Shown here: piece by piece, positions 5,111 through 15,134 of the stretch | How positions within the stretch are numbered: position 1 is the first letter of the stretch | Layout of the letters: each line of letters begins with the position of its first letter | Program-made: the position numbers and the translations under genes | Source of the DNA: a virus | IMG/VR virus record: IMGVR_UViG_3300044990_000211 | Location: 1 to 23,472 of that record | DNA: 23,472 nucleotides | Strand: one strand, 5' to 3' | Notes under the pieces: model-generated | Told to the model about the DNA's origin: nothing | Database searches by the model: none | What the model saw: only the letters and a program-made list of their open reading frames with translations

Positions 5111-5902
5111 ATGCAAATCGAAAAACGGTCGGTCAGTCAATTATCAAACGATCCGGCAAACGCACGAAAGCACAGCGAACGCAACATTCAAGCTATTGTC
5201 GGATCTCTTCGAAGATTCGGGATGCAGAAACCTCTAGTCATCGATTCCTCGGGCGTGGTTCGTGCCGGGAATGGAACTCTTGAGGCAGCACGCCAGCTCG
5301 GGTGGGAAACGATCGATTGCGTTGTTACCGATTTAAAGGGCTCTGACGCTATCGCCTACGCGATCGCAGACAATCGGACGGCTGAACTAGCCGAATGGGA
5401 CGACGACGTTCTAGCGGCTCAGCTAAACGGCTTGTTGGCTGATGACGAAGAGTTGCTCAATGCAGCAGGATTCACTGAAGAAGATTTAGCGTCATTGCTT
5501 GGCGATCTAGACGGTGACGGAACGACAGACTCAGGAGAACAAAGCCAGTACACTAATAAGATCACGGCCCCGATTTATGAACCCAAGGGTGAAAAACCTC
5601 CTATTTCAGAGTTGTCAGACAAGACAAAAACAAACGAATTGTGTGACGAGATACGAAAGACGGACTTGCCTGATGATGTTTGCAACTTTTTGTTGACGGC
5701 AGCACAGCGGCATACGGTGTTTAACTTTCGGAACATCGCTGAGTTCTACTGCCATGCGTCGGCGGACGTTCAGCACCTGATGGAACGCTCGGGGCTGATC
5801 ATCATCGACATGGACAAAGCAATCGCGAACGGGTTTGTTCATCTCTCGGAGCGACTTGGAGCAATCGCAGACCTTGAACTAAGCGAGGCCGAAGATGCGT
5901 GA
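5111..5902 (+). CDS. ParB/Srx-fold protein with phage-specific C-terminal domain
   Basis: The 263-residue protein has an N-terminal ParB-like nuclease fold: DPANARKHS (14-22), SLRRFGMQKPLVID (32-45), RAGNGTLEAA (51-60) and ADNR (86-89). The usual G-H-x-R box is replaced by GNGT, as in the ParB-like domains found beside phage DNA methylases. An acidic linker with DLDGDGTTD (132-140) follows. The C-terminal domain (about 147-250: ITAPIYEPKGEKPPISEL; AAQRHTVFNFRNIAEFYCHAS; QHLMERSGLIIIDMDKAIANGFVHL) recurs in phage ParB-like proteins next to glycosyltransferases. No methylase domain is attached. It overlaps the TAGT gene by 8 bases, so the two are coupled. A DNA-binding, guiding or nuclease role in base modification is inferred. 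ATG5111 is used with the G-rich sequence just upstream. Confidence 0.82.
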   Translation: MQIEKRSVSQLSNDPANARKHSERNIQAIVGSLRRFGMQKPLVIDSSGVVRAGNGTLEAARQLGWETIDCVVTDLKGSDAIAYAIADNRTAELAEWDDDVLAAQLNGLLADDEELLNAAGFTEEDLASLLGDLDGDGTTDSGEQSQYTNKITAPIYEPKGEKPPISELSDKTKTNELCDEIRKTDLPDDVCNFLLTAAQRHTVFNFRNIAEFYCHASADVQHLMERSGLIIIDMDKAIANGFVHLSERLGAIADLELSEAEDA

Positions 5903-6752
5903 TGATTTTTGTGTTTTCATTTTGACGCACGGAAGGCCGGATCGTGTTCACACTTATGACACGATGATAAAGGCTGGCTATACTGGCAAGGTTTACATCG
6001 TACTTGACAACGAGGACAAGCAAGCAGAAGGTTACCGCAATCGATTCGGCGACAAGGTATTGCAATTTAACAAAGAGGAATGGGCAGCAAAAACAGACGA
6101 AGGTGATAACTTTAATCATCGCAAAGCGATCGTGTACGCGCGAAACGCATGCTGGGATTTAGCAAAGCAAGTCGGGTGTCACTACTTTCTTCAATTCGAT
6201 GATGATTACACAAATTTCGAAATACGAATGCCTGGGAAGGGGGTTTCTGGGTACGTTAGAGTAAAGACAAGTCTTGATGATGCGATTTGCTCTATGGTTG
6301 ATTTTTATGAAAGATCAAAAGCATATTCAATTGCCATGTCTCAGGGCGGAGACTTTATAGGCGGAACAGGATCAAACAAAGGGCTTCGCCGTAAGTGCAT
6401 GAATAGCTGGTTTTGCGATATTGAAAAGCCGATTCAATTTTTTGGTCACATGAACGAAGATGTTTCAGCGTATGTCACGCAAGGGCATAGGGGCAAGCTA
6501 TTCTTAACGGTGATGCCTCTAAAGCTTGTTCAAAAGCCTACGCAAGTAACGCCCGGCGGAATGTCTGATCTTTATTTAAGTAGCGGCACCTACGCAAAAT
6601 CGTTTTATACCGTCATGGCTGCGCCGTCTTGCGTTCAGATCGGAGCAATGGGCGACCCGCGAGGCAGCGGCTATCGTATCCACCACAAAATCAACTGGCA
6701 CAAGGCAGTGCCGAAAATCATCGACGAGAAGTACAGGAAGGCGAGGCAATGA
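5895..6752 (+). CDS. TET-associated-type glycosyltransferase (TAGT family)
   Basis: The 285-residue product opens MRDDFCVFILTHGRPDRVHT and contains LDNED (37-41), DEGDNFNHRKAIVYARNACW (68-87), the nucleotide-sugar/metal motif FDDDY (101-105), HMNEDV (185-190) and a C-terminal RIHHKINWHKAVPKII (261-276). This set matches the GT-A-like family described beside TET/JBP oxygenases and ParB-like genes in phages, thought to attach sugars to oxidised DNA bases. No TET/JBP oxygenase or hydroxymethylase is in the window. The gene overlaps both neighbours (8 bases left, ATGA right), forming a unit with the ParB-like and GT75-like genes. Its base composition is more A+T-rich than the head genes, which may mean separate acquisition. 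Family call is confident; donor, acceptor and even DNA as substrate are inferred. Confidence 0.83.
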   Translation: MRDDFCVFILTHGRPDRVHTYDTMIKAGYTGKVYIVLDNEDKQAEGYRNRFGDKVLQFNKEEWAAKTDEGDNFNHRKAIVYARNACWDLAKQVGCHYFLQFDDDYTNFEIRMPGKGVSGYVRVKTSLDDAICSMVDFYERSKAYSIAMSQGGDFIGGTGSNKGLRRKCMNSWFCDIEKPIQFFGHMNEDVSAYVTQGHRGKLFLTVMPLKLVQKPTQVTPGGMSDLYLSSGTYAKSFYTVMAAPSCVQIGAMGDPRGSGYRIHHKINWHKAVPKIIDEKYRKARQ

Positions 6753-7525
6753 AAACAATCGTCGTTGTCCCCTGGCACAATCGCAACCAGCTCGATTCAT
6801 TCATCGACGCGTGGAACGTTTCCTTTTCAGACGAAAGGATTCTTTTTCAGCAGGACCGAGACAAAAGCGGTTGTGCATTAACAAAAAACGCCGGAATGCG
6901 TAGGGCGATCGACGACGGGGCTGAGATCCTAATTGTTCTCGATGACGACTGCTTTCCCACCGAAGGGCAGACGCTCGACGCCTTCATTCGTGACCACCAA
7001 GCGGCACTAAAGCCGCAGCCGGTCGAGATGTTCGAAGTCGTGACAGATCCACCAAGCCGGGGAACGCCGTATTTCAATCGGACCATCACGATGCCCGTGG
7101 CTGCCAGTATGGGGTTCTGGTCTGAGATTGGAGACTATGACGCTCCAGGGCAATTAGTTCACGGGTCGCGGCATCCTATGACGTTCAGCCGCAAGGCAAT
7201 GCACGGGCGATACTTTCCACTCTGCGGGATGAATCTGGCGTTTAGGGCGAGTGAATGGCCGTGGTGTCAGTTCGTAAACGTGCCGAGGTTCGACGACATC
7301 TGGCAGGGATTCCTTTGGCAGAAGAAAGCCTATGCCGCTGGTCAATGTTTTAATCTTGGTGGGCCTATCGTCAGGCATTCAAGACAAAGCAACGTTTGGG
7401 CGAACCTAAGAGACGAGTCTGTAAGCATTGAAAAAAACGAAAGCCTATGGAAAGACATACACAGCATCGAGGACGATTCGCACGCCTCAATTCTGTTTAG
7501 GCTTGGGCTTTCGGTCACTCAATGA
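6749..7525 (+). CDS. GT75-like protein (reversibly glycosylated polypeptide / UDP-arabinopyranose mutase family)
   Basis: The start is ATG6749, overlapping the TAGT stop (ATGA); an ATG at 6629 in frame lies deep in the TAGT gene and is rejected. The 258-residue product has an N-terminal VVVPWHNRNQ strand-loop, LDDDCFP (64-70, the DxD metal/nucleotide site), PYFNRTITMPVAASMGFWSE then IGDYDAPGQLVHG, with DYDAP at 129-133, FPLCGMNLAF (156-165), FDDIWQGF (181-188) and VRHSRQSNVWANL (208-220). The order and spacing follow plant RGP proteins (DDDC, DYDAPTQLV, FPMCGMNLAF, YDDMWAGW, HSKASNPFVNL). Family members interconvert or bind UDP-pentoses. Here it probably supplies or transfers a sugar with the neighbouring TAGT enzyme. 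At 258 residues it is shorter than plant forms (about 350). Confidence 0.8.
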   Translation: MKTIVVVPWHNRNQLDSFIDAWNVSFSDERILFQQDRDKSGCALTKNAGMRRAIDDGAEILIVLDDDCFPTEGQTLDAFIRDHQAALKPQPVEMFEVVTDPPSRGTPYFNRTITMPVAASMGFWSEIGDYDAPGQLVHGSRHPMTFSRKAMHGRYFPLCGMNLAFRASEWPWCQFVNVPRFDDIWQGFLWQKKAYAAGQCFNLGGPIVRHSRQSNVWANLRDESVSIEKNESLWKDIHSIEDDSHASILFRLGLSVTQ

Positions 7526-7526
7526 A

Positions 7527-7931
7527 ATGCCAATCCGTGACACCCGTTTAATGGAGCGAGCATTGCGAGAACGATGGCCGATACCGCAAGAACTTCGAGA
7601 ACGAATCGTACTAAACCTGATCGCTATCGTTGCGAACAAGAGTCTTTCTCCGAGAGAACGAACCTCGGCTGCGAAAGCCTTACTTCACGCCGATCAGCTC
7701 AATGTCGAGCAGGAAAAAATGGAGCAGCTAGACGAGCATGAGTATCGCGCCCGACTGGTACAACTCGCTCGACAACTCCCGCTTGGAGAAGTTGCTAGGC
7801 TTGCGGACGAACGAGGTGTTAGCCTCGACGGCGAAGCAACCGAAGGACGAACGGACGCAGCAAGCAACGCTGATGGCACGCAAGAGAGCGGCAGCGAGGG
7901 ACATCGTAATTCCGATCCCCCTCAACCCTAA
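7527..7931 (+). CDS. Small terminase subunit candidate
   Basis: The 134-residue reading begins at ATG7527; ATG7551 (MERALRERW) is a possible alternative. Earlier in-frame ATG7428 overlaps the GT75-like gene and is unlikely. Residues about 10-75 are helical and basic (RLMERALRERWPIPQELRERIVLNL, SLSPRERTSAAKALLHADQLN), fitting a DNA-binding and oligomerisation core. A second helical stretch follows (EYRARLVQLARQLPLGEVARLADERGV). The last 30 residues are low-complexity (Gly, Ser, Asp, Asn). Position directly before the large terminase supports TerS; sequence alone does not prove it. Its last 194 bases overlap the start of the large terminase frame. The DNA recognition site (cos or pac) is usually near this gene but cannot be identified by eye. 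Confidence 0.62.
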   Translation: MPIRDTRLMERALRERWPIPQELRERIVLNLIAIVANKSLSPRERTSAAKALLHADQLNVEQEKMEQLDEHEYRARLVQLARQLPLGEVARLADERGVSLDGEATEGRTDAASNADGTQESGSEGHRNSDPPQP

Positions 7932-9963
7932 TCGTCGTATTGCAGCACTCGCCGATCCAATCCTATTTATGACGACCTATTTCGGCGATGTGTTCTTTGA
8001 GGCTTTTACTCAAGACCGCCGAGACATGGTTCGTTCAATCGTCGATGCGGCACTCTACGGAGGCGACCAAGCTATCGCTGGTCCTCGAGGCGAAGGTAAG
8101 ACTCGCAACGCACTTTATGCGGCATTGTTCCTGATGCTGAATCGGATGTCGTCCTTCCCGGTCGTTATCGGCAAGAGTCAGGCAAAGTCTCAATCGGAAC
8201 TGCGGTCCATCAAAGACAAACTCCAGCAAGCCGAGATCTTTGCACAAGACTTTCCAGAGATCGCTATTCCGTTTCGGGCGGTAGGAGGTTGGTCGTCTCG
8301 GGCGAGAATGCAAACGGTCGCAGGCAAGAATACCAACATGGAGATCGCAGCAGATCGTCTCATCTTTCCAACGATCGAACCTTGGCAGTTGCCTAGCAAC
8401 TGGCCGAAGGAGATCGAACCTGTAGCTTGCGGTCAAATCTTCTCCTGCGTCGGGATCGACGGACCGATTCGCGGTATGGTCTTTCGAGATCGACGACCGA
8501 CGATCGCTATTATCGACGACATCGAAGATCGAGAGGCGGCAAACTCTGAGGCAGTTATCGAGAAGAATGAAGAGATCCTAGAACAAGACATTGCCGGTCT
8601 AGGTCAATCCTCTGAAAGAATACCTCGGGTCATGCTTTGTACGATCCAGAATCGTAAGTGCATCGCTTACCGCTTTACCGATCCGCAAGCCAAGCCGAGT
8701 TGGAGGGGCAAGCGTTATAGGAAGATGTTAAAGGAACCTGATCGTCTCGATCTAGTGGAACAGTACATTCAAATGCGACAGGCGAGAAAAGAAGACGACC
8801 CGGATGCAAGGGAAGCGTTTCGATTCTGGCGAGTCAATCGAGCAGACCTAGAGGAAGGTTGCGAGATAAGCAACTCTCAGAGCTATTCGAAGAAGAAGCA
8901 CTCGGACGGCGAACCGCTAGAGTTGTCTGCGATTCAAGCCTACTACAACCGAGTCGCAGACCTGGGGCGAAAGGCAGTTGCGACAGAGATCGACAACGAT
9001 CCTTCGGAAGAAGCGGGTCCAGTAGGTTCCGGTCTGACGGTCGGCATTGTCAAGGATCGAATTAGCGGACTCGAACGACGACAGCTACCGGCAAACACGA
9101 TCGCACTCACGGCAGGGATCGACCTGGGGAAGTATCGATGCTACTGGTCGATTTGTGCGTGGTGGTCAGGTGCTGGCGGTTGTGTGGTTGACTACGGAGT
9201 TCTGGAAGTCACCGACACCGATCGCGGCATGGACAACGATGCAAGCGAGCCTCAGATTTACAAGGCACTCCTGGACTGGAGAGACTCGCAGAATCGCAAG
9301 CAGTTCGTCGATGCAACTGGAACAGAACGCAAGCTTGATTTCGTGCTAGTCGATTCGGGTACATTTACAAACGCTGCCTACGAGTTCGTTCGTCAGGTAC
9401 GAGGTCCGTATCATGTCTCCAAAGGCATGAACCCATATCATCCTCGCAAGCAGTCAACCGCCGGAGTCTTAGCGTCCGAACACTTGCACGCTCAAAAGCT
9501 AGAGACTTCGAACGTCTGGCTGTACGAACTCGATACTTCGTACTGGAAGCAGTTCGTCCACGAACGATTCCTTACGCCGACATTCGACGAAAACAACATG
9601 CTGCGGCGAGGTTCGCTCTCGTTATTTTCGACGACTGACGGTAGAACTCATAACTCTTTCGCCCATCATATCGTTGCCGAAGAACTTGTAACCGAGTTCA
9701 AAGAAGGCAGGGGCACGAAAACATACTGGCAAGTCCGGAATGAGAACAATCACTGGCTTGACGCAACCTACATGGCGGCGGCAGGAAGTGAGGTGTGCGG
9801 CGTTAGGATGATCGCTCCAAGCGAGAAGGAACTGAGTCCAAGACAGGTAAAAAATGGAAATGACGAAGCAAAAGCGAAAGCAAGAAACAATCGACCCCAA
9901 GTCCAGCACGGTCGAAGAATCCAAGGTCGAGCAGGAGGTTGGATTCCAAAGCGTCGTCGATAA
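7738..9963 (+). CDS. terL: Large terminase subunit (GpA-like ATPase/nuclease)
   Basis: This DNA-packaging motor is 741 residues from ATG7738. Walker A is GPRGEGKT (115-122), and Walker B is IAIIDDIED (256-264) with E263 or D264 as the catalytic acid. GGDQAIAGPRGEGKT, IGKSQAKSQSELRSIK and RVMLCTIQNRKCIAYRFTDP are conserved landmarks of this planctomycete-type branch. The C-terminal RNase H-fold nuclease shows AGIDLG with D462, LVDSG with D539 and HWLDATY with D675. The C-terminus is strongly basic (GRRIQGRAGGWIPKRRR). ATG7873 (MARKRAAARD) is an alternative start that would shorten the overlap with TerS from 194 to 59 bases. I prefer 7738 because relatives carry an N-terminal extension of similar length before the PNRR...LADP motif. 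The 3' end overlaps the next gene by 110 bases. Confidence 0.93.
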   Translation: MSIAPDWYNSLDNSRLEKLLGLRTNEVLASTAKQPKDERTQQATLMARKRAAARDIVIPIPLNPNRRIAALADPILFMTTYFGDVFFEAFTQDRRDMVRSIVDAALYGGDQAIAGPRGEGKTRNALYAALFLMLNRMSSFPVVIGKSQAKSQSELRSIKDKLQQAEIFAQDFPEIAIPFRAVGGWSSRARMQTVAGKNTNMEIAADRLIFPTIEPWQLPSNWPKEIEPVACGQIFSCVGIDGPIRGMVFRDRRPTIAIIDDIEDREAANSEAVIEKNEEILEQDIAGLGQSSERIPRVMLCTIQNRKCIAYRFTDPQAKPSWRGKRYRKMLKEPDRLDLVEQYIQMRQARKEDDPDAREAFRFWRVNRADLEEGCEISNSQSYSKKKHSDGEPLELSAIQAYYNRVADLGRKAVATEIDNDPSEEAGPVGSGLTVGIVKDRISGLERRQLPANTIALTAGIDLGKYRCYWSICAWWSGAGGCVVDYGVLEVTDTDRGMDNDASEPQIYKALLDWRDSQNRKQFVDATGTERKLDFVLVDSGTFTNAAYEFVRQVRGPYHVSKGMNPYHPRKQSTAGVLASEHLHAQKLETSNVWLYELDTSYWKQFVHERFLTPTFDENNMLRRGSLSLFSTTDGRTHNSFAHHIVAEELVTEFKEGRGTKTYWQVRNENNHWLDATYMAAAGSEVCGVRMIAPSEKELSPRQVKNGNDEAKAKARNNRPQVQHGRRIQGRAGGWIPKRRR

Positions 9964-10141
9964 GCAACCAGAAGACAGGGTGCGTCTTCGATTCGTTCCG
10001 AAGGATTGCGAACAGTGCAAGGCGTTGCGCATCGCCAAGAACGAAACGCGATCATTCTCTAGAGTCTACGCGACGGTTGGCGGTGCAAGATATTGCAAAT
10101 GCTATTTCTGCGGTCACACATGGAAAGTATCTAAGTCTTAA
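9854..10141 (+). CDS. Small zinc-ribbon protein
   Basis: The 95-residue product starts at ATG9854 (ATG9860 is a close alternative) and overlaps the terminase end by 110 bases. The first 40 residues are charged and probably disordered. The second half forms a zinc ribbon: KDCEQCKALR, then about 25 residues later YCKCYFCGHTWK, giving CxxC and CxC/CxxC ligand pairs. Small zinc ribbons of this type are often found between terminase and portal genes in Mu-like and planctomycete prophages and may help DNA binding or packaging. The exact role is unknown. Confidence 0.72.
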   Translation: MEMTKQKRKQETIDPKSSTVEESKVEQEVGFQSVVDKQPEDRVRLRFVPKDCEQCKALRIAKNETRSFSRVYATVGGARYCKCYFCGHTWKVSKS

Positions 10142-10412: not shown

Positions 10413-12220
10413 TTTCTAAGTTAATCGATTCGATTGTTGCTGCAGTTTCTCCGGTCGCTGCTATCAGGCGGAAGAAGGCGAGAAAAATGCTGCGATCTTA
10501 CGCCGGAGCAGAGCCTTCGAGAGTTTCCAGCAACAGGCATCCGAAGAATCTTCCTGCCGACTTAGAACTGACTGGACCGTTCGGCGCCGATAAAGTTCGG
10601 GCTTGGTCTCGGGATCTCGTTCGAAACAACTCCTATGCTTGGGGAGTAGTCGATACGATCGTCTCTTCGGTCGTCGGTTGCGGAATCAAAGCACAATCGA
10701 CCTACGAGACTCCAGAAGGCGAAGACCTCGAAGCAATAAACGATCAGCGGGATAAGGTCTGGTCTGAGTGGACTGAGGTTTGCGACGTTAACGGGCAGTA
10801 CACGCTTGACGAAATGCAGGCGGCGATTCAACGGGAAATTGTCGAAGCAGGCGAGGTGCTTGTTCGAATTGTCCGAACTCCTGAACTTAGCTATCGCGGC
10901 ATCCATCGACCTGTCCCGTTGGCACTCGAATTAATCGAAGCAGATCGGCTAGCAGGAGACAAGGACAGTTACATTACGCCACTCTACCCAGAGTCAGAGA
11001 ATCGAATCGTCAGGGGCGTAGAACTCGACGATCTCGGAAGACCTGTTGCGTACTGGGTCTACAAAGACCATCCGCTACAGCCGCACACATTTACCAGAAC
11101 GCCGGAACGGATTCCCGCTAGAGACATATTGCATCTATTCCGCAGAGACCGCATCGGTCAGACTCGCGGCGTATCTTGGTTCTCGCCAGTGCTGTCTTCT
11201 ATCAGAGACCTCGGAACCTATATCGATAACGAACTGATCGCTTCGGCGGTTGCGTCTTGCTACACGATCGCAATCAAGACTGAGACTCCACTAGGTTCGC
11301 TAATCGATCCAGACGGAGGCGACAATACGGACTCGGCAGGAAATCGAGTGCGATACACCGAGCCGGGAATGGTCATGGAACTTCAACCTGGAGAGGATGT
11401 CGTCGGACTCAATCCAGGTCGTCCGAACAGCGGCGCAGAGCCTTGGATTCAACTTATCCTCCGATCGATCGCGGTCGGTACTGGCTTGAGCTATGAGGTC
11501 GTCGCCAGAGACTATTCGCAGACTTCCTACAGTTCTAGTCGAACAAGTCAACTAGAAGACAGGCGACGATTCCGATGCTGGCAACAACATATGATTCGGC
11601 ACTTCCTGCAACCGGCATGGGATGCGTTTTGCGATGCCGCATCAATTCAAGGTGTGCGAGGATTTCCGACGAGTGCGGAACTCTTAGCAGATCGTCGTCG
11701 GTTTGCTCCGGTGGAATGGCAGACTCCAGAATGGGAATGGGTTGACCCGACTAGCGAACAGTCGGCGGCGAAGGATGCGATCGGTTCGTTTATGTCGGAC
11801 TACCAAACTGAACTCGGTTCCAGAGGTCGATCGTGGCGTGCAGTTTTCTATCAGCGAGCCAAGGAAGATCGGTTACGGCAACGGCTAGGCTTGCTGTCTC
11901 CGGAAGAAAAACAACAAGAGATTTCGGCGGCGCAGACTATCGGCATGAAACAACCGGCAAGTCAACCGGCACAAACAGAAACAGAGCGGCAGGAACCCCA
12001 AGCCGGAACTGGCGAGATGTCTGGTCTTTCAACCCTTCAATTCAATCGCAATCGCAAAGCGATTACCAAGACGCTTGACGATCTAGCGACAGGATCGATA
12101 AGCGAAGCAGCAGCGAGAGTCTTTCTGTCGTCGATAGGCATGAGTCTCGACAATGTTGAAGCGTTAATTGCGGATGCGAAAGACGGAACGGTAGACACAC
12201 CGTTGGAGGAAGCGAAATGA
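10409..12220 (+). CDS. Portal protein (lambda gpB family)
   Basis: The 603-residue portal forms the dodecameric ring at the capsid vertex. Family landmarks are AWSRDLVRNNSYAWGVVDTI then VSSVVGCGI (65-93), QREIVEAGEVLVRI (about 140-153), LELIEADRL, GVELDDLGRPVAYWVY, IPARDILHLFRRDRIGQTRG then VSWFSPVL, and YSSSRTSQLEDRRRFRCWQ. A Gln/Glu-rich tail (about 520-550) and a helical C-terminal region follow; the total is somewhat longer than lambda gpB (533). It overlaps the genes on both sides by four bases, so head genes are translationally coupled here. Confidence 0.93.
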   Translation: MISKLIDSIVAAVSPVAAIRRKKARKMLRSYAGAEPSRVSSNRHPKNLPADLELTGPFGADKVRAWSRDLVRNNSYAWGVVDTIVSSVVGCGIKAQSTYETPEGEDLEAINDQRDKVWSEWTEVCDVNGQYTLDEMQAAIQREIVEAGEVLVRIVRTPELSYRGIHRPVPLALELIEADRLAGDKDSYITPLYPESENRIVRGVELDDLGRPVAYWVYKDHPLQPHTFTRTPERIPARDILHLFRRDRIGQTRGVSWFSPVLSSIRDLGTYIDNELIASAVASCYTIAIKTETPLGSLIDPDGGDNTDSAGNRVRYTEPGMVMELQPGEDVVGLNPGRPNSGAEPWIQLILRSIAVGTGLSYEVVARDYSQTSYSSSRTSQLEDRRRFRCWQQHMIRHFLQPAWDAFCDAASIQGVRGFPTSAELLADRRRFAPVEWQTPEWEWVDPTSEQSAAKDAIGSFMSDYQTELGSRGRSWRAVFYQRAKEDRLRQRLGLLSPEEKQQEISAAQTIGMKQPASQPAQTETERQEPQAGTGEMSGLSTLQFNRNRKAITKTLDDLATGSISEAAARVFLSSIGMSLDNVEALIADAKDGTVDTPLEEAK

Positions 12221-12537
12221 TTATCTCGCTAGACTTTGACGATACCTTCACGGCAGATCGAGAAACCTGGACGAAAGTTGCTAGTGTGCTAGCCGATGCT
12301 GGTCACGAAGTGATTTGCATATCGGGTCGAATCGATGAAGAGTCGAATCAAACCGAATTACGTCAGTCGCTACCTGATTCGATAGAAAGAATCTATCTTT
12401 GCGGCGCTGTCTCCAAGAAACACTACGCCGAGACGCATTCGATTCCGGTAGATGTATGGATCGACGACAGCCCGACAAGAATCGTTCAAGCGAAAGATCG
12501 AGTCGTTAGATCGTGTTGTGCAAGGAGGTCTCGATAA
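12217..12537 (+). CDS. HAD-superfamily phosphatase-like protein
   Basis: The 106-residue protein begins MIISLDFDDTFTAD, with the HAD nucleophile pair D6 and D8. SGR at 36-38 is motif II-like, K67/K68 could be the motif III lysine, and WIDDSP (81-86) is the acidic motif IV. It is a minimal, cap-less HAD domain, like those of small phage nucleotidases or polynucleotide 3'-phosphatases. It is wedged between portal and capsid-fusion genes (ATGA overlap left, TAATG right). Substrate is unknown; a role with nucleotides or DNA ends is possible. Confidence 0.8.
   Translation: MIISLDFDDTFTADRETWTKVASVLADAGHEVICISGRIDEESNQTELRQSLPDSIERIYLCGAVSKKHYAETHSIPVDVWIDDSPTRIVQAKDRVVRSCCARRSR
12522..12529 (+). 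promoter_or_regulatory. Near-perfect ribosome binding site for the capsid fusion
   Basis: AAGGAGGT lies 7 bases before the ATG at 12537, inside the 3' end of the HAD gene. It is the strongest Shine-Dalgarno sequence noticed in the window and fits the high expression expected of a capsid protein. It also decides the start: the upstream in-frame ATG at 12513 has nothing comparable. Confidence 0.85.
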
Positions 12538-15134
12538 TGCCTTACAGCACAAAGACAACTGCTGCTTGCCCGATCTCTCGACCTTGGGGAGTCATCAAAG
12601 AAGGCACGGCTCAAGTCATGGGTTGCCATGCTAGCGAGTCCGACGCTAACGAACAGATCGCAGCACTTTACGCAAGCGAAGAAATCGAGCGAGCGAAGTA
12701 CGACGACATCGACTTTTCTCCTCCCGAGGGTGTGCAGGAAGAGGCAGCGAAAGGTTTGGAGTGGCGACAGGAATACAATCGCGGCGGTACGGCTGTCGGT
12801 GTTGCTAGGGCAAGAGACCTCAGCAACGGAAAGTCAGTCAGCCCTGAAACGATTCGACGAATGGTCAGCTACTTTGCACGACACCAAGTAGACAAGAAAG
12901 GCGAAGGGTGGAGTCCAGGCGAGGATGGCTTTCCGAGTGCAGGCCGAATCGCTTGGGCACTTTGGGGCGGAGATCCAGGGCAGGCTTGGTCTGCGAAAGT
13001 GAGTCGATCGATGGATGCAAGAGACAAAACAGAGCGTATCTCGAAGATGCCTAGAATCAAACGATACTTTGAAAACGTCAAGGACGGTCGAGCGGTTATA
13101 GCAACCGAGACTCCGATCGAAATCTACGACGAGACTAGAGGTTGGCTCAGTCAAGTTCTATTGATGGACGGAGTGCAGTTCCGAAACGACAAACGACAAC
13201 TGCCGATTGTTGACTCGCACAACGATAAGACAGTTCGCAATGTCTTCGGGTCAATTCGCAATATTCGGATCGAAGGTGACAAGCTTATAGGCGATGCGGA
13301 CTTTGCATCGGACGAAGACTCGCAGATCGTTGCGACTCGATATGAAGAAGGTCATTTAAACGATTTTAGTATCGACGCAGTAATTATCGAACGAAAGTAT
13401 TTGCGTGAGGGAGAACAATATGTGACAACCTCAGGAACGGTAATAAATGGACCGGCTGAAATTGTCACACGTTGGGAACCGCACAACGCTTCGATTTGTG
13501 CTACAGGCGCAGACCCTAATTCAACTGTAAGACGTTCCTACAACCAAAAGGATATTGAAAGAATGGACGAAGCATTGATGGAACAACTCAAGGCTCTTGG
13601 GTTGCCAGAAGGAATGGAAGATCCAATGGCGATTATTACTTGGATGGCAGACCATATGAAACCGGCTGTCGTCGAAGTCGAAAGCATGGAAGACGAAAAG
13701 AAAGTCGAGAACATGCAAGACGAAGAAATGCCGAAGGTCGAAAGCATGGACCAGAAGGTTGCCGAAGAGGTCGCACGACAACTTAAAGCCGAGAAGGTTC
13801 GGCGAGAAACAATCTACAACAACGTCAAGCTTGCAAGGCTTGAGAGATCCTTTGCCGATCAGTTGATCGACGAGGGAGTTTCCGTAGCGGTTGCAAACGA
13901 AAGGATCATTCGCAAGATGGCAACTCAACCCCTCGGTCAGTCGAACGAATCGTCGGCACACATCGCAGTCACCGAAAGCAGCGACGAAAAGTTGGCAGCA
14001 GCAATGTCTGCCGGACTTATCAAGCGCGCATTTAAGAACGCAAAGATCAAAGCAAAGGCAGAAGATGCTCCTGGCTCGAACGACTTCGCAAACTTGAATC
14101 TTCGCCGATTGGCTTCCTACTGCGTGCAGCGCATGGGAATCAAGACCGATCGAATGACGGATGCCGAGATCGCACGATTGGCGATGGGTTCTCCCGGTGC
14201 TGCAAGTCGATACCGAGTTCAGCGTGATGCTTATCACACGACTGGATCTTTCCCGAACTTGTTGCTTGATGCTGCAAACAAGACTTTGCGTCAAGCTTAC
14301 GAAGAGGCTCCTTACACTTGGAGTCTTTGGGCACGGCAAGCAGCATCGGTCGATGATTTCAAAAACATCAACCGCATTAGCTTCGGCGAGTCGCCTAACT
14401 TGGAAATGGTTCCAGAGGCTCAGGAATACAAAGAGAAGTCGATCAGCGATTCGAAGACCAGTTACAAGGTTGAAAAGTACGGTGCGATCTTTACGATCTC
14501 TTGGGAAACTGTCATCAACGACGACTTGGATGCGATCAGTCGAGTTCCTGCGATGCACGGCAACGCTGCTCGACGAGTCCAGAACAAGGCGGTTTACGAC
14601 ATCCTGTTCACCAACCCAACCATGAGCGATGGACAGTCGCTGTTCTCTGCCTCTCACGCTAGCGGCCGAAACACCAACAGCACTACGGCAGCATTGAACG
14701 TAACGCTTCTGAATGAAATGTTTTCGTTCATGATGTTGCAGAAGGGTCAAAGTTCCGACGCGATCCTCAACATCACTCCTCGCTACTTGCTAGTTCCTGC
14801 GGCATTGTCTGCAACGGCATTGGAACTGGTCAACAGCCAGTCTTACGCACAGACCGGCGGCAACGAAGGAGTCATCAACATCTACGGTGTGAATGGTCAG
14901 CGACCTCTAACCGTGGTTGTCGAACCCCTCATCGACGGTCACGATAACGGTGCTTACTACCTTGCTGCTGATACGTCGCAGATCGACACTGTCGAACTGA
15001 GTTTCCTTAACGGAGAAGAAGCTCCAGTTCTCGAAAGCGATCTGCACTTCGAAACTGATACCTATCGCTATAAGGTTCGCCAGACGTTTGGTGCAGCCGC
15101 AATCGATTGGCGTGGTCTGAGTCGTTGCACTTGA
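12537..15134 (+). CDS. Prohead protease - scaffold - major capsid fusion protein
   Basis: The 865-residue product joins several head functions. Residues about 1-155 hold a domain with GLEWRQEYNRGGTAVGVARA, RDLSNGKSVSPETIRRMVSYFARH and GWSPGEDGFPSAGRIAWALWGGD, a module often found with phage prohead proteases. Residues about 172-335 look like the protease: LPIVDSHND with H228, HLNDFSIDAV with S278, and a later acid/His (E307 or H317). Residues 340-500 are charged and helical, with an acidic Met-rich patch (VESMED, VENMQDEE, VESMDQK) like a scaffold or delta domain. From about 510 to 865 lies an HK97-fold capsid (SFPNLLLDAANKTLRQAYEE; ISWETVINDDLDAISRVP; PRYLLVPAAL; TYRYKVRQTFGAAAIDWRG). Self-cleavage would be expected to release mature capsid protein. 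It starts in TAATG with AAGGAGGT upstream. Confidence 0.9.
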   Translation: MPYSTKTTAACPISRPWGVIKEGTAQVMGCHASESDANEQIAALYASEEIERAKYDDIDFSPPEGVQEEAAKGLEWRQEYNRGGTAVGVARARDLSNGKSVSPETIRRMVSYFARHQVDKKGEGWSPGEDGFPSAGRIAWALWGGDPGQAWSAKVSRSMDARDKTERISKMPRIKRYFENVKDGRAVIATETPIEIYDETRGWLSQVLLMDGVQFRNDKRQLPIVDSHNDKTVRNVFGSIRNIRIEGDKLIGDADFASDEDSQIVATRYEEGHLNDFSIDAVIIERKYLREGEQYVTTSGTVINGPAEIVTRWEPHNASICATGADPNSTVRRSYNQKDIERMDEALMEQLKALGLPEGMEDPMAIITWMADHMKPAVVEVESMEDEKKVENMQDEEMPKVESMDQKVAEEVARQLKAEKVRRETIYNNVKLARLERSFADQLIDEGVSVAVANERIIRKMATQPLGQSNESSAHIAVTESSDEKLAAAMSAGLIKRAFKNAKIKAKAEDAPGSNDFANLNLRRLASYCVQRMGIKTDRMTDAEIARLAMGSPGAASRYRVQRDAYHTTGSFPNLLLDAANKTLRQAYEEAPYTWSLWARQAASVDDFKNINRISFGESPNLEMVPEAQEYKEKSISDSKTSYKVEKYGAIFTISWETVINDDLDAISRVPAMHGNAARRVQNKAVYDILFTNPTMSDGQSLFSASHASGRNTNSTTAALNVTLLNEMFSFMMLQKGQSSDAILNITPRYLLVPAALSATALELVNSQSYAQTGGNEGVINIYGVNGQRPLTVVVEPLIDGHDNGAYYLAADTSQIDTVELSFLNGEEAPVLESDLHFETDTYRYKVRQTFGAAAIDWRGLSRCT

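Follow-up and report, generated by a model that had tools for sequence, protein, structure and literature searches.

What does a gene with a ParB fold do directly ahead of two sugar-handling enzymes and the terminase genes of a virus? The question is raised by positions 5,111 to 7,525 of IMG/VR record IMGVR_UViG_3300044990_000211, a 23,472-base fragment of an uncultivated virus that is called the window in the following. Three overlapping genes encode a ParB-like protein, a glycosyltransferase of the TAGT (TET-associated glycosyltransferase) family, and a GT75-like enzyme related to the reversibly glycosylated polypeptides (RGP). We found that the conserved unit is not these three genes but two of them, the ParB-like protein with its C-terminal domain (C-domain) and TAGT, and we consider it fairly probable that the pair performs an adaptor-guided glycosylation of viral DNA, coupled to packaging or to the replisome and with a lineage-specific sugar supply. 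The features are as follows.

5111..5902, plus strand: ParB-like putative adaptor gene, 263 residues, with an N-terminal ParB/Srx (CTPase) fold and a C-terminal TAGT-linked domain
5549..5851, plus strand: TAGT-linked C-terminal domain, residues ~147-247, the peptide YTxKIxxPxYEPxG followed by an all-helical domain
5895..6752, plus strand: TAGT (PF20691) GT-A glycosyltransferase, 285 residues
6198..6206, plus strand: DDD metal/sugar-nucleotide motif of TAGT, residues 102-104
6749..7525, plus strand: GT75/RGP-like enzyme, 258 residues, predicted nucleoside diphosphate (NDP)-pyranose-to-furanose mutase
6941..6949, plus strand: DDD motif of the GT75-like enzyme, residues 65-67
7058..7060, plus strand: Arg104 of the GT75-like enzyme, by alignment the autoglycosylated Arg159 of MtdL, in RGxPF/Y context
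7527..7931, plus strand: small open reading frame (ORF) between the GT75-like gene and the large terminase gene, putative small terminase by position only
7738..9963, plus strand: terminase large subunit (TerL), GpA type (PF20454 1.3e-20, phrog_15 2.8e-31)

In named viruses of E. coli, Salmonella, Nocardia, Lactobacillus, Haloarcula, and Porphyromonas a ParB-like gene lies ahead of the TAGT relative, and Vibrio phages of ~195 kb retain just the last ~107 residues of this protein, as a free-standing gene with 55% identity. A search of named phages seeded with the C-domain gave 28 records, every one of which (28/28) is among the 36 records with a TAGT. When IMG/VR was scanned in the same way, TAGT was located downstream of the C-domain in 31/31 loci in a first scan and in 77/77 analysed loci, mostly as the next gene, in a second scan that gave at least 595 matching stretches; the two scans partly share contigs. 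The same was found in bacterial genomes of many phyla (44/44 loci, 43 of them with TAGT within 700 nucleotides). Although the C-domain and ParB_N belong to one protein, the C-domain tracks TAGT more closely than ParB_N does (r=0.52 versus r=0.22 for the distances in 57 non-redundant pairs). The C-domain is obligately linked to TAGT, and it is the part of the ParB-like protein that matters.

The C-domain spans about 100 residues (~147-247), matches no Pfam family, and contains the invariant residues Y147, Y156, R200, A210, Y213, Q221, D233, and A237. It starts with the peptide YTxKIxxPxYEPxG, which is followed in the model by a small all-helical domain with helices at 172-239. The peptide is strongly conserved but of low confidence in the monomer model, which is how a partner-binding peptide would be expected to look. 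That the C-domain is itself a catalytic hydroxylase was judged unlikely, the modelled domain being small, all-helical, and devoid of a recognisable metal site. The N-terminal part scores slightly under the Pfam cut-off for ParB_N (PF02195, E=1.9e-5, 25.1 bits against 26.3). Nevertheless, this assignment is confirmed by PHROGs (phrog_620 7e-48, phrog_498 2.4e-36) and by the predicted fold, because the AlphaFold2 model (pLDDT 83.9) finds ParB/Noc CTPase structures in Foldseek, the best being 7bnk, the M. xanthus ParB, at 2.5e-7.

TAGT, the other member of the pair, scores far above the cut-off of its family (PF20691, 5.7e-33, 115 bits against 27.5) and matches phrog_842 at 1.3e-71. In its DDD motif D103 and D104 are invariant and D102 is near-invariant across 46 homologues. 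The structure model (pLDDT 88.7) has GT-A matches in the PDB with E-values down to 5e-6, but these neighbours are generic GT-A folds only (TM-score ~0.45), and by sequence TAGT has no convincing match among solved structures. The Ggt protein of phage T6 matches PF20691 at 1e-8, so that both Ggt and the TAGT of the window are above the family cut-off, while the TAGT alignment, compared directly as a profile with Ggt alone, gave no significant match. Judged from its family and motifs, TAGT may act as a DNA sugar transferase; "TET-associated" is a family name only.

The original prediction had proposed a three-gene module of these families that leads directly into the terminase. The families are confirmed by Pfam, PHROGs, and fold, and the arrangement can be read from the sequence. 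The ParB-like and TAGT genes overlap by 8 nucleotides and the TAGT and GT75-like genes by 4 (ATGA), the small ORF (ATG 7527) begins within 2 nucleotides of the end of the GT75-like gene, and the GpA-type TerL is next, the ORF of which opens at 7738 while its true start may be at ~7861. The natural start of the GT75-like gene is ATG 6749, where the homologues begin as well, although the listed ORF opens at TTG 6629. The small ORF has no family match in Pfam or PHROGs. Because close homologues keep the three-gene order in about ten further IMG/VR contigs, the arrangement next to the terminase is not a matter of chance. Genes and order are thus real, but the GT75-like gene is a lineage-specific extra to the two-gene unit.

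Two genomic layouts were distinguished in a reduced set of loci, counting a terminase as near within 5 kb. In the fused form (ParB_N plus C-domain) 54 loci are near a terminase, none is near replisome genes only, one is near both, and 15 are unassigned. In the stand-alone form (16 loci without ParB_N) nine are near clamp, DNA polymerase (PolA), or helicase genes, none is near a terminase, and seven are unassigned. Layout and domain form are strongly associated (Fisher p=4e-11, not corrected for relatedness). These layouts place the C-domain/TAGT system in DNA metabolism, and they suggest that the ParB-fold domain plays the part at packaging that in large phages falls to the replisome. Large phages often have two or three TAGT copies (L025, L029, L108). 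We found no description of the C-domain/TAGT pairing or of the two layouts in the literature searched, outside of which are the founding TAGT papers, and priority is uncertain. Iyer 2013 and Burke 2021 reportedly named TAGT/TET systems, and ParB neighbours may already be mentioned there.

In E. coli the pair sits in Rac-like prophages between trkG and the terminase. A sequence match is present in 1562 of 5426 complete E. coli genomes, and 887 of these cover at least 80%. The Rac-like ParB-like ORF is of full length (276 residues, C-domain E=9e-47, L082:19917-20747), although the RefSeq annotation marks ynaK as incomplete despite the open 276-residue frame. In K-12, YnaK is only the surviving first ~75 residues, and TAGT and the terminase are gone. 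Lactobacillus delbrueckii phage c5 has both genes. Its relative Ld17 has lost the ParB-like gene and its TAGT is shortened, and in Ld25A a single short gene merges remnants of both (L211 and L212 are Ld17 and Ld25A). As far as these sequences tell, the pair was lost as a unit in both phages.

Which sugar might be transferred? The GT75-like protein matches PF03214 (RGP) at 1.6e-11 (44.4 bits, cut-off 23.8), UDP-arabinopyranose mutase 8cid at 1.4e-6, and the MtdL entries 7xpr/7yua at ~3e-4, and has no NCBIfam match. The catalytic residues reported for MtdL, including the autoglycosylated Arg159 (PMC9937993), can be mapped: DDD109-111 correspond to D65-67, Arg159 to R104, D195 to D129, R257 to R180, D260 to D183, and H287 to H210, all of them invariant in 15 phage homologues. 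MtdL S228/Q229 are aligned to G160/M161, and for MtdL D87 no counterpart could be assigned. The site is thus intact, as is D102-D104 of TAGT, and because the mapped residues are invariant the protein is predicted to be an NDP-pyranose-to-furanose mutase. A view of the catalytic arginine as lost was dropped, given that MtdL Arg159 aligns with the invariant R104 (RG-x-P-F/Y; PMC9937993). The mutase must have other uses as well because GT75/RGP-like genes also occur in phages without a nearby TAGT (within L041-L043, for example L041:7920-8819 and L043:6815-7753, and L130:8770-9705); this TAGT-free set includes a 595-kb huge phage (PF03214 1.7e-42).

The related loci offer further candidates for sugar supply and tailoring. 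In L108 a UDP-galactopyranose mutase (equivalog TIGR00031, 339 bits against 303.75) overlaps TAGT at the end of an array of overlapping TAGT-TAGT-C-domain-TAGT-mutase genes (L108:3224-7301), after which a phage sliding clamp is encoded. Nucleotide-sugar epimerase/dehydratases of the short-chain dehydrogenase/reductase (SDR) type lie within the module in L100 and L184, and cytidylyltransferases downstream of TAGT in L026 and L033. Between adaptor and TAGT, a fusion of a histidine phosphatase and a cytidylyltransferase-like protein (His_Phos+CTP_transf) is found at L197:5326-6294 and likewise in L202 and L204. About ten Clostridia-type loci have radical-SAM genes (CNNxCPYC) downstream of TAGT, which in prophages L094, L096, L104, L107, L110, L115, L121, L123, and L124 are placed ~1 kb past TAGT and before the terminase; the enzyme may tailor the sugar or produce the acceptor. 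That two unrelated furanose-forming mutases adjoin TAGT would speak for a furanosyl donor in the lineages concerned. The arabinose that had been suggested earlier was a guess; the GT75 residues, and the UDP-galactopyranose mutase present instead in another locus, make a furanosyl sugar the better prediction. Altogether, the earlier interpretation is sensible but too narrow, and is partly supported.

From families, intact motifs, obligate pairing, layouts, and sugar-nucleotide genes in the module the following mechanism could be envisaged. The C-domain would be the obligate adaptor of TAGT, docked probably through the peptide YTxKIxxPxYEPxG, and the ParB-fold domain would hold the resulting complex on DNA close to the packaging apparatus. 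At a late stage of infection, either ahead of packaging or while it proceeds, TAGT would take a sugar from its nucleotide-sugar donor and attach it to the viral DNA, presumably to a base, and the sugar would protect the DNA against host nucleases. In the lineage of the window the donor would come from the GT75-like enzyme, which would turn an NDP-pyranose into an NDP-furanose. The adaptor of large phages has no ParB domain; this stand-alone form adjoins polymerase, clamp, or helicase genes, and coupling to the replisome is therefore suggested instead. There is precedent for both kinds of coupling. Phages commonly encode ParB folds in fusion with DNA methyltransferases (PMC12704722), and the T4 alpha-glucosyltransferase (alpha-GT) binds the gp45 clamp, although this contact was found not to be the main reason for the predominance of alpha-glucosylation (PMC13216743).

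Several observations weigh against this mechanism. The TAGT known to act on DNA needs hydroxymethylcytosine (hmC), to which, in glucosylated form, the T2/T6 enzyme adds a second glucose (PMC13390438, PMC13216743), yet acceptor-making enzymes are essentially absent in the relatives. We compared 21 related records, which include the whole small genomes of c5 (31.8 kb), jlb1, HHTV-2, and NTR1 and several IMG/VR records that are fragments. Thymidylate synthase/hydroxymethylase (PF00303) was found in one of the 21, a Vibrio phage of ~196 kb, a C5-methylase also in one, Tet_JBP (PF12851) in none of the 21 in a search without positive control, and a match to a 2-oxoglutarate oxygenase model in none of 20. 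Published nucleoside data for a phage carrying the pair were not found. NTP binding by the ParB-like copy of the window is doubtful because in its P motif (GxxR, here GNGT at residues 53-56) the arginine, kept in many relatives, is replaced by threonine. The terminase adjacency would equally suit a protein substrate. Of all these points the missing acceptor enzyme is the main uncertainty.

The window itself, being a fragment, has no visible deoxycytidine monophosphate (dCMP) hydroxymethylase of the thymidylate synthase superfamily, and, in line with the original prediction, no base oxidase or hydroxymethylase was found, with the TET model lacking a positive control. T4-type alpha- or beta-GTs are not annotated in c5, jlb1, HHTV-2, or the Rac-like records, for which no family search was made. 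For the carriers Pv27, phiTY18, and HHTV-2 the accessible literature gives neither nucleoside nor restriction data that bear on DNA modification. There are three possibilities: an enzyme that escaped recognition makes the acceptor, a canonical base is the target, or the target is something other than DNA. Tentatively, C-domain and TAGT could form a self-sufficient complex that needs no pre-hydroxylated base and glycosylates an unmodified canonical one, or some other position of the DNA. Its donors could be furanosyl or otherwise unusual, and a ParB-type element at packaging, or else the replisome, would tether it. Phage DLP3, whose DNA resists 15 restriction enzymes and which encodes a ParB and an unrelated glycosyltransferase, is outside the TAGT match list and was not used as evidence.

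The main rival is that TAGT sugars a protein, for instance the terminase, the portal, the capsid, or the ParB-like protein itself; the C-domain would then serve either as the acceptor or as a scaffold for docking. This would explain why nearly all relatives are without a base-hydroxylating enzyme and why TAGT is strictly linked to a single protein domain, and the Foldseek neighbours of the TAGT model include the protein/peptide glycosyltransferases COLGALT1 and SunS, at low TM-scores. However, the stand-alone form is located in replisome operons and not beside structural genes, the types of terminase, portal, and replisome vary among the carriers so that only the adaptor is left as a conserved substrate, and the characterised PF20691 enzyme works on DNA (PMC13216743). 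We therefore regard a protein target as unlikely.

Phage nucleotide-sugar enzymes and glycosyltransferases often target O-antigen or capsule (PMC7824862), and the enzymes might thus change host surface glycans for receptor masking or seroconversion. It is hard to see how this would fit the late packaging or replisome position and the fusion to a ParB fold; moreover, no membrane or flippase partner was seen adjoining the pair, which is kept from haloarchaea to Firmicutes with their unrelated envelopes, making this very unlikely. A role of the ParB-like protein in partition or regulation, with the neighbouring genes being an unrelated moron, is also highly improbable. The ParB annotation would suit such a role, and phages DLP3 and DLP5 with ParB genes were thought to lysogenise as phagemids (PMC7326821), but the conserved part is the non-ParB C-domain, which lacks ParB_N in 16 loci. 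In addition, the carriers include integrative Rac-like prophages, the pair was lost together in Ld17 and Ld25A, and no ParA was seen near the pair (none among the window proteins scanned with Pfam, small ORFs not all being covered). Glycosylation of viral DNA guided by the adaptor is accordingly the reading we prefer.

The abundance of the pair in E. coli makes this reading testable in laboratory strains, and the decayed pairs of Ld17 and Ld25A are natural broken controls for the intact c5. Should the target be DNA, a modification that is very common among temperate phages has been overlooked. Should it be a canonical base, the modification would belong to a new class, present in very many temperate phages, the E. 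coli Rac-like prophages among them.

Other genes of the window are listed for completeness. Positions 1555-2412 carry a papain-like cysteine peptidase signature (GSCQGFSLA, GGHATAW, NSHNDSW; phrog_16701 peptidase 1.3e-4). Between terminase and portal, 9854-10141 encode a small Cys-rich zinc-ribbon-like protein (CxxC ... CKCYFCGHTW). Between the portal and the protease-capsid gene, 12217-12537 encode a small HAD-like protein (LDFDDTFTADRETW; phrog_4256, function not assigned). A single ORF of 865-873 residues at 12513-15134 combines head maturation protease and major capsid protein (phrog_4523 2.7e-135).

How does the system compare with known ones? The arabinosyl-dC system of RB69/Mosigvirus likewise glycosylates phage cytosine, and candidate genes for its sugar donor are encoded by the phage (PMC6024577, PMC13390438), but it uses a 5-hydroxy-dCMP acceptor from a thymidylate-synthase-superfamily enzyme, its putative transferase resembles the T4 alpha-GT, and neither ParB/C-domain nor GT75 is reported. 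Phage fusions of the ParB-CTPase fold with DNA methyltransferases (phrog_498) also couple a ParB fold to a DNA-modifying enzyme; in the window the enzyme is instead a separate glycosyltransferase linked via a dedicated C-domain, and the P-motif arginine is missing. With the GT75 mutases (plant UAM/RGP, bacterial MtdL, Hyg20) the GT75-like protein shares the DDD motif, the autoglycosylated arginine, and the D195/R257/D260/H287 equivalents (PMC9937993), but it is phage-encoded, shorter (258 residues), and translationally coupled to a putative DNA glycosyltransferase. Also close is Ggt of T2/T6, the beta-glucosyl-HMC-alpha-glucosyltransferase, which like TAGT is a phage-encoded PF20691 member with a GT-A fold, and whose gene in T6 adjoins replication genes. 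T6 has a dCMP hydroxymethylase and an alpha-GT and no C-domain partner; the window has the partner, and neither of the two enzymes was found (the alpha-GT judged by annotation only, in relatives). "Solitary TAGTs" without alpha- or beta-GT were recorded in 288 of 753 phage genomes with T-even-type glycosyltransferases (Nucleic Acids Res 2026 gkag531, May 2026, PMC13216743). That paper flags them as possible novel transferases and leaves them unexplained, and its accessible part names no partner. The apparent lack of an acceptor-making enzyme is now a sharp question, and with the partner domain, layouts, and sugar-supply genes identified here a large group of such TAGTs gains an obligate partner, two genomic layouts, and a menu of donor and tailoring genes.

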